Source: Dehalococcoidia bacterium (GTDB taxonomy: Bacteria > Chloroflexota > Dehalococcoidia > Tepidiformales > Tepidiformaceae). From it: a stretch of DNA of 64,000 nt. Where the stretch lies: NCBI GenBank assembly GCA_020432045.1, contig JAGQHB010000060.1, forward strand, positions 1-64,000, read 5' to 3'. A program made the translations under genes and the position numbers. The notes beneath the pieces are model-generated. The model searched no databases. It was not told the DNA's origin and saw only the letters and a program-made list of their open reading frames with translations. Positions 15,512 to 62,821 of this stretch are shown in pieces (within the stretch, counting starts at the first letter, position 1; each line of letters begins with the position of its first letter).

Positions 15512-16291
15512 TCAGGCGAGGAATCCGTTAATGACGGAAAGCAGTGCCTGGGGCTGCTCGGCGCCAGGCAGGTGACCGGCGCCGGGAATGATGGCGATGG
15601 ACGTGTTCTTGATCGCGGCCTGGAAGTCGGAAGCGAGAGCTGGTGGGCAGATGCGATCCTGTTCGCCCCAGACGAGGAGCGTCGGAGCGCTAATGCGGTG
15701 GGAGCGGCGGGCGAGCCCCCGATTGGGGATGGGCCAGAGGTACTTGGCGGCAATGCGGAGGGATTTCGCCCGTTCGTAGTAGAAGGCGACGCGTCCAGCG
15801 TCGTCCTGGGGGACGGATGCTGCAGCCTGAGCGGCATCCGAGGAGGGGTTGGCGTACATGGCGGCAGCAAGGCCTGCCGGAGACTCAACGAAGAAGTCAA
15901 CCACGGGATGCTGTTCGTTCCAAAGACCGAAGGGAGCGATGAGGACGAGCTTCGAGATGCGGTCCGGCTGGGCCGCAGCTAACTCCGCGGCGAGCATAGC
16001 GCCGAGCGAGTGGGCGACGATGGGGACGTTCTTGAGCCCGGCGGCGTCCATGAAATCGAGTCCCCAATAGATGAGGTCCACGAAGTCGTTGAGATGTTCG
16101 TCGCCGGTGCTATTGCCATAGCCTGGAATGAGCGGTGCGATCACGCGGTGGGTCCTGGCGAGCCCTTCGATCATTGTGTCCGGGATGACGCCGTTCCATC
16201 CATGAAGGAGGAGGAGAGGCGAGCCGGAGCCGGCTTCGATGCATTCCGTGGAGAAGGCTCCGCCACGGACAGAAACAGTGGTTGTGTTCAC
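15512..16291 (-). CDS. alpha/beta hydrolase
   Basis: A 259-residue alpha/beta hydrolase of the MhpC/epoxide-hydrolase-like group. It has the oxyanion segment LLLHGWNG near residue 35, the nucleophile elbow AHSLGA (about 95-100), Asp in WGEQDRI and the catalytic His in GAGHLPG near the C-terminus. The start is GTG with GAGGAG about 11 nt upstream. It follows the LLM oxidoreductase by 25 bp on the same strand and probably shares its transcript; this pairing is common in catabolic clusters. Substrate unknown. Confidence 0.85.
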   Translation of the reverse strand: MNTTTVSVRGGAFSTECIEAGSGSPLLLLHGWNGVIPDTMIEGLARTHRVIAPLIPGYGNSTGDEHLNDFVDLIYWGLDFMDAAGLKNVPIVAHSLGAMLAAELAAAQPDRISKLVLIAPFGLWNEQHPVVDFFVESPAGLAAAMYANPSSDAAQAAASVPQDDAGRVAFYYERAKSLRIAAKYLWPIPNRGLARRSHRISAPTLLVWGEQDRICPPALASDFQAAIKNTSIAIIPGAGHLPGAEQPQALLSVINGFLA

Positions 16292-16316: not shown

Positions 16317-17549
16317 TTACTTTGCTGCCACGAGCTGCGGCGTGTACATCGGGCCGGGGCCCTGGGGAGCGCTCATTGGCTTGATCCACCATTTGTCTTC
16401 GTAGTCAGACCAGAGGTGGCGGAGCTTCGGAAGCACCGTTTCCGTCGTGAGCTTGATGTTGTGCATGGCGGTGTCGTGAGGGATGGATCCGAACTGGTTG
16501 AGCACCATCATGTGGCCGATTCGGAGGTCCTTGATGACCTGTTCCAGCTGTTCAGTGACCTGGTCAGGCGTACCGGCGACGATGTTCCCGGCCTCACGGA
16601 GGTCCTTGAATGTGAGGGCGGCCGGGCGCTGACCGAACTGCGTGGTCTGGCCGAGGAGGCCCGCTTTCACGGTATCGAGGGTGCGATAGCCGGGGGCGTC
16701 GGAGAAGCCCGGATAGACGTGAAGCATCTTGTTGTAGAAGTACTCGCCATGAGCACCGTAGCGGTCCTGGACTTCGCCTTCGCTCTCGCCGACGGCGACG
16801 AGCTGGAGGAAGCCAGCCTGGTAGGGGTTCATATCAGAGCCGAGGGATTCGGCCTTGTTCCAGAAGCCATCCATCACCATCTTCCCGCGCTTGAAGCCGG
16901 AATAGGAAAGGTAGGCGTAGAGGTAACCCTTCTCGACGCACCAGCCCCACGTTTCAATGGAACCGCCGCCGGGGATCCAGATCGGCGGGTGCGGTTCCTG
17001 GAGCGGACGCGGCCAGATGTTCACGTAGCGAAGCTGGGTGTAGGTGCCATCGAAGGAGAAGACGTCTGGATTGCTCCAGGCCTTCATGATGAGATCTTCG
17101 GCTTCGTAGTAGCGGTCGCGGAGCGTGGCAGGGTTCATACCGTACCCGAAATTGGTGTCAGAACTTGAGCCCACGGGGAAGCCTGCGACGAGACGGCCGC
17201 CACTGATGCAATCGAGCATGGCGAACTCTTCGGCGACGCGGATGGGCGGGTTGTAGAGGGCGATTGAGTTGCCGAGGACAACGAGGGCTACATCCTTTGT
17301 CCGCCGGGCGAGCGCGGCGGCCATGATGTTGGGGGAAGGCATGAAGCCGTAGGCGTTCTGGTGGTGTTCGTTTACACAGATGCCGTCGTAGCCCATAGCT
17401 GCGCCGTATTCGAGCTCGTCGAGCGTGTCGTTGTACATGGAGTGGGCACGGTCGGCTTTGAAGAGGTGGCTGGGGATATCGACCCAGACACTCCGGTATT
17501 TCTCATCAAAGTCTTCGGGGAGCTCCCGGTAGGGCATGAGGTGGAACAT
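16317..17549 (-). CDS. LLM-class flavin-dependent oxidoreductase (F420- or FMN-dependent)
   Basis: About 410 residues, bacterial luciferase-like TIM barrel. Typical features are GYDGICVNEHHQ near residue 50, VVLGNSIALYNPP, and ISGGRLVAGFPVG. Such proteins use F420 or reduced FMN to oxidise or monooxygenate small molecules; with a flavin reductase gene divergent from it, FMNH2 use is possible. Start choice is uncertain. AAGGAGG lies 20 nt before the ATG at 17549, but exactly 8 nt before an ACG at 17561 whose reading (T/M)KFEMFHLMPYR matches how I recall relatives starting. I annotate the ATG. The frame upstream to 17636 lacks support. Confidence 0.88.
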   Translation of the reverse strand: MFHLMPYRELPEDFDEKYRSVWVDIPSHLFKADRAHSMYNDTLDELEYGAAMGYDGICVNEHHQNAYGFMPSPNIMAAALARRTKDVALVVLGNSIALYNPPIRVAEEFAMLDCISGGRLVAGFPVGSSSDTNFGYGMNPATLRDRYYEAEDLIMKAWSNPDVFSFDGTYTQLRYVNIWPRPLQEPHPPIWIPGGGSIETWGWCVEKGYLYAYLSYSGFKRGKMVMDGFWNKAESLGSDMNPYQAGFLQLVAVGESEGEVQDRYGAHGEYFYNKMLHVYPGFSDAPGYRTLDTVKAGLLGQTTQFGQRPAALTFKDLREAGNIVAGTPDQVTEQLEQVIKDLRIGHMMVLNQFGSIPHDTAMHNIKLTTETVLPKLRHLWSDYEDKWWIKPMSAPQGPGPMYTPQLVAAK

Positions 17550-17720
17550 TTCGAACTTCGTGTGCGATCCCTCCTTGTTGTCTGCCACAGGCTCGAGCGG
17601 ACAGTTGACAGTCCGTTCTGCGGGCGATTGATACACGCCAGGCTAACGAACTTCAAGGCATTCTGCGCCTTTCGGGCCATTCTGGCAGGATCGAACGGAC
17701 ATTGCAGCAGGAGCAACAGC

Positions 17721-18281
17721 GTGACGCATGGAGAACTCCCGGTCCTACCGGGCAGCCCAAAGATCATCCCGGGGCCGGAAAAGGCGATGCTGAAGCTGAG
17801 CTACGGCGTCCATGTGGTCGGCTCGCGGAGCGAGCGGGGCGACCTGAATGCGATGCTTGCCGACTGGGTGATGCAGGTTTCGTTCAAGCCGCGGCTAGTC
17901 TGCGTAGCGATCGAAAACGATGCCCGGACGCTTCGGTTCATCCGGGAGACTGGCGCGTTCAGTGTGAGCCTGCTGCACGAAAAGGGCGGAGACCAAATCG
18001 CCCGCCGCGTCGTCATGCCTTCGGAATCAAAGAAGATCAAGGGGCGGCCGGATGAGATGCAGGACCTCGTATACAACAAGCTCGACGGGATGAGCTACGG
18101 CATCCACGACAACGGGTGCCCGGTACTGGACGAGGCACTGGGATGGTTCACGTGCGACCTGCGCGAGACGTTCGCCGCGGGCGACCACACGCTAGTGATC
18201 GGCGAAGTGACGGACGGCGATGTGGTACGCGAGGGTGAGATGTTGATCGAGCGGGAGCTGGGCTGGGAGTACGCGGGTTAG
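17721..18281 (+). CDS. flavin reductase family protein
   Basis: A 186-residue flavin reductase-like (split-barrel) protein: LSYGVHVVGSR at the N-terminus, then VMQVSFKPRLVCVAIEND and GAFSVSLLHEKGGDQIARR, the FMN-binding layout of the family. It makes reduced flavin or uses bound FMN. The GTG at 17721 has AGGAG 7 nt upstream. Upstream ATG-started frames overlap the divergent LLM gene and have no homology. Divergent placement beside a luciferase-like oxidoreductase suggests the two work together as reductase and monooxygenase; this is inference. Confidence 0.85.
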   Translation: MTHGELPVLPGSPKIIPGPEKAMLKLSYGVHVVGSRSERGDLNAMLADWVMQVSFKPRLVCVAIENDARTLRFIRETGAFSVSLLHEKGGDQIARRVVMPSESKKIKGRPDEMQDLVYNKLDGMSYGIHDNGCPVLDEALGWFTCDLRETFAAGDHTLVIGEVTDGDVVREGEMLIERELGWEYAG

Positions 18282-22156: not shown

Positions 22157-23053
22157 TTAGCGGAAGTGGATGGCCACCTCGTCCCAGAAGCGGTCGTACT
22201 GGCCGAGACGGGCTGAGCCGGACCCGAGGTTAAAGTCCGGAATGATGAGTTCATCGACACCGGCATCGGCGTAGGCCTGGACGACTTCGCGGACCTGGGC
22301 TCCGTTGCCAGCGATGACAGGGCGGCCGCTGGCCTTCATACGCTCGATCATTTCCTTGTCATCGGTGAGGACAAGCATGCCCTGGGCGCTGCGGTGGATT
22401 TCCTTCGGATCGCGGCCAATCGCGCGGCAGTGCTCTTCAAGGACGGCACCCTTCTGCTTGAGGATCTCGGGGCCTCCCCAGACGTTCCACTCATCTGCGT
22501 AGGTGGCAGCGATGCGCATGGTGACTTTTTCGCCGCCGCCGCCGATGAGGAGCGGGAGCGTGCGTTGCGCAGGCTTGGGGACGAGGGGGGCGTCAGTGAG
22601 CTGGTAGTAGCGGCCGGCGAAGTCCGTGCGGTCGTTCAGAAAGAGGCTCTTGACGACCTGACAGGCTTCTTCCAGGCGGCGCATGCGGCCGCCAAGTGTT
22701 GAGAATTCGATGCCGTACTTCTGGTGCTCGTTCTCCTGCCAGCCCGCGCCGAGGCCGAGGACGAGCCGGCCCGCGCTGATGTTGTCGACGGTGGCAGCCA
22801 TCTTGGCGAGGACCGCGGGGTGACGATAGGTGTTGCCGGTGACGAGCGGGCCGATGCGGATCCGGGGCACCGAGGCAGCCAGGGCAGCGAGTGTCGTCCA
22901 TGCTTCATTCGTAGGTCCAGACACGTCCTCCGCGTTTGGCATGAAGTGGTCGGCATACCAGATTCCATCGTATCCGCGCTTCTCGGCGTGGAGCGCGAGT
23001 TCGAGCGTGGATTCCCAGGGCTGGGCCGGGCCCGGCCAGACGCTGAATTTCAT
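22157..23053 (-). CDS. LLM-class F420-dependent oxidoreductase
   Basis: A 298-residue luciferase-like protein starting MKFSVWPGP. Family signatures include GYDGIWYADHFMP (about residues 27-39), IRIGPLVTGNTYRHPAVLAKMAATVDNIS, RLVLGLGAGWQENEH, and LLIGGGGEKV. This subgroup (TIGR03560-like) is usually annotated as F420-dependent; cofactor use is inferred. The ATG has GAGG about 10 nt upstream. It lies between the acyl-CoA dehydrogenase and a terpene-cyclase-fold protein, all on the minus strand. Substrate unknown. Confidence 0.88.
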   Translation of the reverse strand: MKFSVWPGPAQPWESTLELALHAEKRGYDGIWYADHFMPNAEDVSGPTNEAWTTLAALAASVPRIRIGPLVTGNTYRHPAVLAKMAATVDNISAGRLVLGLGAGWQENEHQKYGIEFSTLGGRMRRLEEACQVVKSLFLNDRTDFAGRYYQLTDAPLVPKPAQRTLPLLIGGGGEKVTMRIAATYADEWNVWGGPEILKQKGAVLEEHCRAIGRDPKEIHRSAQGMLVLTDDKEMIERMKASGRPVIAGNGAQVREVVQAYADAGVDELIIPDFNLGSGSARLGQYDRFWDEVAIHFR

Positions 23054-61282: not shown

Positions 61283-62821
61283 GTGAAGTACCGCGTCATC
61301 GTGATCGGGAGCGGGATCTCGGGCCTTTTCGTGGCGCTGGAAACGCGACATCTCGGGCCGGTGCTGGTGCTGACCAAGGGGAGCATCGACGACTGCAACA
61401 CGAAATGGGCACAGGGCGGGATTGCCGCTGCAGTGGGTGCGCTGGATTCATTCGAACAGCACCTGGCGGACACGATCGTAGCGGGGGCCGGGCTGGTGGA
61501 CGCGGACGCAGCGCGGATCCTTTGTGAGGAAGCGCCCGCGCGGATTGCCGACCTCGTGCAGTACGGCGTCTCGTTTGACGAGATAGAAGGGGTAGTTTCG
61601 CTCGGGAAAGAGGCGGCTCACGGGCAAAACCGGATTCTCCACGCGGGCGGCGACCGGACGGGTGCAGCGATCGAGACAGCCCTGAGTTTTTCGACGCAAC
61701 AGGCGGAGATCACGGTATTCGACTACAGCCTCGCGACGCGGCTGCTCGCAAAGGACGGGCGGGTCGTGGGCGTCGAGGCACTCGACCTCCAGTCAGGACA
61801 GCGCGAGGAATACTTCGCAGACGCAGTGGTGATCGCGACGGGCGGTGCTGGTCAGCTTTATGACTACACGACGAACCCGGACATCGCGACGGGCGACGGG
61901 ATTGCCCTGGCGTTTGAAGCGGGGGCCGAGGTAAGCGACCTGGAGTTCTACCAGTTCCACCCGACGGCGTTGCGGCTGGAGGGGGCGCCGCCTTTCCTGA
62001 TCTCGGAAGCGGTGCGAGGCGAGGGTGCGGTACTGCGGAACGCAGCCGGGGACGCGTTCATGCCTCGATATCACAAGCTTGCAGACCTCGCGCCGCGGGA
62101 CGTGGTAGCGCGAGCGATCGTGCGGGAGATGAGGGCTGCGTCCGCGGACCATGTCGTGCTGGACTGCACCGGACTCCACGGGATGGACGTTGCAGCCCGA
62201 TTCCCGGGCATCTACAGCTACTGCCATGGCCAGGGGATCGATATGCGGACGACGCCGATCCCGGTGGCGCCCGCGGCGCATTACATGATGGGCGGCATCC
62301 GGACGGACACTATGGGACGGACGACGGTCGCGGGCCTCTATGCCTGTGGGGAGTGTGCCTGCACTGGTGTCCACGGGGCGAACCGTCTGGCAAGCAATTC
62401 GTTGATGGAGACGGTCGTGTTCGGCAAGCGCGTGGCGGAGGATCTCGCGCGGGGCGAAACACCGCCAGCGCCACAGACCGCGGACGCCATCGTGGCGCCC
62501 GAGGTGCTGGACGGTGCAGCAGGAGATCACACTACCATCCGAAGCCTGATGTGGGATGCCGTTGGTATCGAGCGGGACGGGACGCGGCTGCGCGCGGCAC
62601 TGGAAAGGCTCTCCGCCACGGCGCCCGAAACGGGCATCAACGACGACGCGCGGACGCGGCGTGATGTTGAAGAGCGGCGAGGGATGAGTTCGCTTGCCAG
62701 GCTGATGACGCGTGCTGCCCTGCAGCGAGAAGAGAGCCGGGGCGGGCACTACCGGCGAGACTTCCCGGAGACGGACGATCTCCGGTGGAAGCGGCACCAG
62801 GTGTTTCGCAATGATGCTTGA
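61283..62821 (+). CDS. nadB: L-aspartate oxidase
   Basis: A 512-residue FAD flavoprotein that oxidises aspartate to iminoaspartate, the first step of de novo NAD synthesis. The dinucleotide motif VIGSGISGLFVALE is at the very start, then TKWAQGGIAAAVG, and GANRLASNSLMETVVFGKRVAED near residue 390; LARGETP marks the end of the FAD domain. GTG 61283 places the Rossmann motif at the N-terminus as in the family; the frame from 61217 would start inside the operator. It overlaps nadC by 11 bp. Confidence 0.93.
   Translation: MKYRVIVIGSGISGLFVALETRHLGPVLVLTKGSIDDCNTKWAQGGIAAAVGALDSFEQHLADTIVAGAGLVDADAARILCEEAPARIADLVQYGVSFDEIEGVVSLGKEAAHGQNRILHAGGDRTGAAIETALSFSTQQAEITVFDYSLATRLLAKDGRVVGVEALDLQSGQREEYFADAVVIATGGAGQLYDYTTNPDIATGDGIALAFEAGAEVSDLEFYQFHPTALRLEGAPPFLISEAVRGEGAVLRNAAGDAFMPRYHKLADLAPRDVVARAIVREMRAASADHVVLDCTGLHGMDVAARFPGIYSYCHGQGIDMRTTPIPVAPAAHYMMGGIRTDTMGRTTVAGLYACGECACTGVHGANRLASNSLMETVVFGKRVAEDLARGETPPAPQTADAIVAPEVLDGAAGDHTTIRSLMWDAVGIERDGTRLRAALERLSATAPETGINDDARTRRDVEERRGMSSLARLMTRAALQREESRGGHYRRDFPETDDLRWKRHQVFRNDA

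Follow-up and report, generated by a model that had tools for sequence, protein, structure and literature searches.

We describe an LLM class (luciferase-like) oxidoreductase gene of a Dehalococcoidia bacterium that has ACG where the 112 relatives compared all carry a canonical start codon, together with a second gene, encoding a PfkB-like kinase, that has ACG at its start position in most genera of the same family. From sequence comparison, we read the PfkB-like ACG as a conserved start codon in the family, which is very probably Tepidiformaceae. For the oxidoreductase we lean, on balance, towards translation from the ACG at 17561 at a reduced rate, with the 30S subunit placed by a Shine-Dalgarno (SD) sequence, a mismatched initiator tRNA, and an ACG that arose from ATG by a transition.

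The oxidoreductase gene lies in a 64,000-nucleotide stretch of DNA that was analyzed as a whole (the window), part of contig C8 of the draft genome G000. Features are given in Table 1.

Table 1. Features of the oxidoreductase locus (window positions) and the second ACG gene (genome:contig:positions).
Feature	Position	Strand	Remarks
LLM class (luciferase-like) oxidoreductase gene	16317..17561	-	open frame from ACG, 414 codons + stop
Proposed ACG start codon	17559..17561	-	aligned with ATG/GTG/TTG of 112/112 relatives; 8 nt from AAGGAGG
SD sequence AAGGAGG	17570..17576	-	duplex energy -12.7, rank 3 of 111 (gene + relatives)
First in-frame ATG, codon 5	17547..17549	-	rejected as main start; SD 20 nt off
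In-frame GTG nine codons upstream	17586..17588	-	possible rescue start, judged unlikely; best upstream duplex -2.2
Alpha/beta hydrolase gene, downstream	15512..16291	-	probable operon partner; PF00561
Flavin reductase-like gene, divergent	17787..18281	+	ATG 17787 assumed; PF01613, E 4.9e-32
PfkB-like kinase gene (L236, L253)	G000:C66:60534-61358	-	SD-ACG site 61356-61373; 275-codon frame

An earlier note on this DNA had placed AAGGAGG (17576-17570, minus strand) exactly 8 nt (17569-17562) before the ACG at 17561-17559, and 20 nt from the first in-frame ATG (17549-17547); re-reading the sequence bore out every one of these distances. The codons from 17561 are ACG AAG TTC GAA ATG, the ATG being in frame with the oxidoreductase. 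Two in-frame GTGs further upstream (17588 and 17636), absent from that note, both lack an SD sequence. The LLM protein matches PF00296 (Bac_luciferase; E 4.2e-33, 115.5 bits against a gathering score of 27.9), and its fold matches include PDB 2i7g (the best) and bacterial luciferase 1luc. It falls in no named NCBIfam LLM subfamily, with the best model, TIGR03858, scoring 85.9 bits against a cut-off of 462.25 and the other 17 listed also under their cut-offs. A similar hydrolase gene follows the LLM gene in relatives L029 and L032 (judged by eye). RNA structure at the LLM start is unremarkable (z-score 0.17), and there are no promoter-like sites within 17400-17900. Genome-wide there are 25 matches to the LLM protein, among them 22526-23014 (minus) in the window; a 56% identical paralogue with an ATG start lies on the same contig (C8:72000-73211), and two LLM paralogues of G000 also start with ATG.

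To place the start we compared relatives of the LLM gene. Of 253 found, 80 from named genomes were kept, one of which is cut by a contig end; the 79 that were read, together with 33 family loci (L112-L144; L109-L111 repeat L029-L031), give 112 relatives, two of them repeats, and hence 110 distinct genes. Opposite the ACG, 74 of the 112 have ATG, 30 GTG, 8 TTG and none ACG (73 ATG, 29 GTG and 8 TTG among the distinct genes). Relatives open with MKF, MKI or MKL at this point, which agrees with the earlier proposal that reading the ACG as Met yields an MKF-type start. By homology, then, we regard the position of the LLM start as settled. With ACG in 0/112, sister species lend the base itself no support in this gene. 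The proposal of an ACG start is thus upheld as to place, and gains from the family keeping ACG in another gene, while finding no relative with ACG at this codon. Since all 112 are canonical here, ACG appears specific to this genome in the LLM gene; the genomes compared include one of this genus, G000.

The SD sequence is strong for its kind: its duplex energy is third among 111, and 19 of 3000 random 20-mers from the window reach it. The duplexes upstream of ATG 17549, GTG 17588 and GTG 17636 are weaker than at all 111 sites. The window has a single AAGGAGG-N8-ACG string where 0.16 would be expected, and shuffling gave one or more such strings in 16 of 100 trials, so that the string alone is weak evidence; it is the position, exactly at the relatives' start codon, that in our comparison carries weight. 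These data also bear on two other starts. Translation from ATG 17549, yielding a protein that lacks the first four residues, would use the first in-frame ATG, but this codon is 20 nt from the SD sequence, with a best duplex of -1.0 within the 20 nt upstream. In an AlphaFold model (38 sequences, mean pLDDT 89.4) strand beta-1 comprises residues 2-7, so a start at codon 5 would be predicted to cut it; we consider this start very improbable. Scarcely better, in our judgment, are the prospects of a real start mutation with translation from GTG 17588, which would add nine residues before the Thr. That GTG is in frame with no stop between, yet it has no SD sequence, its upstream duplex (-2.2) is weaker than at all 111 sites, and when the upstream DNA was aligned to that of six relatives, no conserved block was visible by eye.

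Apart from its start codon, the LLM gene is intact and constrained. Against its closest relative dN is 0.131 and dS 0.77 (406 codons), none of the 98 columns that are at least 95% conserved is altered, relative-rate tests (24:20, 29:19 and 19:22) are not significant, and no stop interrupts the 414 codons. It is improbable, in our view, that the gene lost its start very recently and is becoming a pseudogene. ACG works poorly elsewhere, as far as the excerpted PMC6925171 goes, and the genome has the 56% identical paralogue with ATG; on the other side stand the 414 stop-free codons, the 0/98 changed columns and the lack of a significant rate excess, although a start lost only very recently would not show in such data.

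A further alternative is that the C reflects an error in the consensus or a minority assembly variant, in which case the cells carry ATG and the LLM gene is ordinary. ACG is one transition from ATG, the closest relative has ATG, the genome is a draft in 115 contigs and the genus is represented by one genome only; nothing direct speaks against such an error. A strong SD sequence (rank 3 of 111) is expected where the start is weak, but this counts little against a base error because the site was first noticed through that SD sequence. ACG is tolerated elsewhere in the family, and we rate a base error as unlikely, while according it a substantial share of probability.

The PfkB-like kinase gene came from a genome-wide search for AAGGAGG-N5-9-ACG, in which all 45 loci were read (30 + 15); apart from the LLM gene, it was the one site that resembled a genuine start. 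Its protein matches PF00294 (E 7.8e-11) and is under all NCBIfam cut-offs; the gene is flanked by jag (Jag_N, KH, R3H), which a YidC-type gene precedes, and by a ParA-type gene. In G000 the ACG follows an in-frame stop by 5 codons, and the first canonical codon downstream is 8 codons away. The gene is present in 32 of 38 family genomes, our own included, at E 1e-15 or better. Setting aside one fragment, we read all 31 full-length copies (family copies L254-L282, L293). The start position is ACG in 22 of the 31, representing 12 of 15 genera. In the other nine copies, from three genera, a canonical codon stands 3-6 codons upstream (GTG in L261, ATG in L269, and ATG in seven copies of one genus).

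Each of the 22 ACG copies has an SD sequence (energy -8.2 or better). In 19 there is no in-frame ATG, GTG or TTG from the preceding stop to the ACG (the exceptions are at -12, -42 and -66 codons), and 14 of these 19 also lack ATT, ATC, ATA and CTG in the same interval; the preceding in-frame stop is within 7 codons of the ACG in 7 of the 22. Downstream, the next 29 codons include no canonical one in 12 copies, and the other 10 have one 3-9 codons on. L262 has its stop 6 codons upstream, with none of ATG/GTG/TTG or ATT/ATC/ATA/CTG between, and no canonical codon follows in the next 40. Residues just past the ACG are invariant (G7, N8, D12 and G22-P24 in 24 aligned members); conserved positions would therefore be lost with a start 30 codons on. 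Within the 22 genes, ACG accounts for 127 of 338 Thr codons, compared with 22/22 at the start, a contrast limited by the non-independence of related species. The start label needs four changes on a protein tree of 38, and 0 of 500 shuffles scored as low. Three of the ACG copies are in single-contig genomes (G021, G022 and G026, all Tepidiforma), and it is not credible that this one codon was miscalled independently 22 times. The stop codon of jag precedes the ACG by 2-22 nt and is in frames 0, 1 and 2 relative to it at 6, 8 and 8 of the 22 loci; as the stop occurs in all three frames, we rejected the idea that the PfkB-like gene is reached from jag by a fixed frameshift or by readthrough.

Outside the family, 80 genomes of the class match the PfkB-like protein (112/393 including the 32), of which 20, mostly the best-scoring, were read. 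In all 20 jag is beside the PfkB-like gene, and in 19 a canonical codon lies 0-9 codons upstream. The ACG start of this gene thus looks like a trait of this family. The twentieth jag-linked homologue, L294 (G068:C54:4000-8000), has no in-frame ATG, GTG or TTG from -40 to +20 codons and is another possible non-canonical start. Since the family keeps ACG at the start of the PfkB-like gene, ACG initiation is credible in the lineage that carries the LLM gene.

The counts do not support ACG as a general start codon in this genome. In a 428-kb sample (the window plus 20 stretches, with mechanically called open frames), ACG was not enriched after SD sequences (10 vs 8.3 expected; ATG, 36 vs 7.1). AAGGAGG-N5-9-ACG occurs 45 times in G000 against 48 in a reversed control (ATG, 45 vs 23), and 50 times against 52 in the single-contig genome G026. 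Besides the PfkB-like site, the G000 pattern loci passing a length and upstream filter are L216, apparently the inside of a chaperonin gene, and L217 and L226, which do not look coding; the LLM site fails this filter on account of GTG 17588. In G026, where we read each of the 50 pattern loci (30 + 20), six rows pass a similar filter, two of them being the same PfkB-like site and the other four not gene-like by eye. Among frames lacking an early canonical start, the matches listed include two ACG sites with SD sequences, neither of them gene-like by eye. A 211-codon frame at C8:64740-65372 (minus; L187:4740-5372) has GGGGAGG, 8 nt, ACG (65372) and then a hydrophobic stretch, with the next canonical start 28 codons on; none of the 37 other family genomes has a match to it, it has no Pfam match and a low coding score, and we list this third ACG candidate as a lead only.

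Among 41 tRNA matches in G000, read with ARAGORN, three have a CAT anticodon, one of which has initiator-like features. Among the tRNAs found, an initiator with a changed anticodon was rejected: the initiator-like tRNA has CAT, and the sole CGT tRNA is an ordinary Thr tRNA. This tRNA (G000:C96:25385-25457, L148) is the only Thr tRNA found; the set is incomplete and may have missed others, since it lacks, for example, Thr GGT, Thr TGT and Ile GAT, absences that are probably assembly gaps. Given the CAT anticodon, mismatched pairing of the ordinary initiator is the likeliest route. In the explanation we favour for the LLM gene, AAGGAGG at 8 nt would place the 30S subunit on the ACG, and the ordinary initiator tRNA (anticodon CAU) would pair with it despite the second-position mismatch, helped by the SD sequence. 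The base would be real and ribosomes would initiate there at a low rate, the protein still having Met as its first residue. A single transition from ATG within this lineage is the most likely origin of the ACG, and the very strong SD sequence would keep the gene usable. The explanation fits the family keeping ACG at the start of the PfkB-like kinase, where ribosomes finishing jag just upstream may also help. The expected effect of an ACG start is a low synthesis rate. G000 has one IF3 gene; IF3 represses non-canonical starts in other bacteria, according to the excerpts of PMC5472188, and may do so at these ACG starts.

Excerpts of PMC5622118 describe 61,358 ancestral AUG starts with switches to GUG, UUG, CUG and AUU, and none to ACG; annotation may hide ACG switches. 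They also state that weaker starts tend to be offset by stronger SD sequences, a relationship whose direction they leave undecided. An E. coli RFP library (PMC6925171, excerpts) places ACG among four codons at 0.1-1.5% of ATG; CGC, TGG, AAA and ACT stand at 26-33%, and the codon ranking, as excerpted, looks noisy. The nearest bacterial parallels, again from excerpts, are other natural genes with weak starts. The infC (IF3) gene starts with AUU in E. coli, ATC in Streptomyces and AUA in S. aureus, where it has an extended SD sequence (PMC5472188, PMC13009471); unlike ACG, whose mismatch is at the second position, ATT, ATC and ATA mismatch at the third, and IF3 feedback is established for infC. 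The GTC start of Streptomyces sigR (PMC5472188) is likewise a rare start in one gene, missed by gene callers, but it was proven experimentally, whereas the ACG starts here are proposed from comparison. Conserved non-canonical starts with strong SD sequences are also described for S. aureus cvfC1 (AUU) and ccpN (PMC13009471), where they hold expression down, to about 10% of AUG in poor medium; those are not ACG, and were measured by ribosome profiling and reporters. Plastid rpl2, psbL and ndhD have ACG at the start position in DNA, but their RNA is edited to AUG, and the same source (PMC9845219, excerpts) says that such editing is not observed in bacteria. Yeast ALA1 has a natural ACG initiator (PMC2909995, excerpts), but with eukaryotic scanning and no SD sequence. 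Among the literature matches listed (titles and abstract openings, with subscription papers mostly outside their scope), ACG starts were in organelles, yeast and viral vectors, and none was a natural bacterial ACG start.

Non-canonical starts as such are already known in bacteria; ACG would be the new part. Reportedly, all 64 codons were measured as starts in E. coli by Hecht in 2017. To our knowledge NCBI table 11 does not include ACG as a start codon, and ACG starts would be mis-annotated as a result. Tentatively, at a little under an even chance, we suggest that the family has selected an ACG start as a throttle on the PfkB-like kinase, kept in 12 genera and probably controlled by IF3, which would hold the kinase well below its neighbours; use of ACG in the LLM gene would be younger and independent, enabled by the strong SD sequence. 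The ACG start is directly testable in Tepidiforma, with three named species; the family genome G024 has an LLM gene identical to that of Tepidiforma sp. KatS3mg064 and appears to be this organism. If true, it would be a natural case of how far a strong SD sequence offsets a bad codon, and a conserved ACG start would mean that natural bacterial initiation reaches codons mismatched at the second position.
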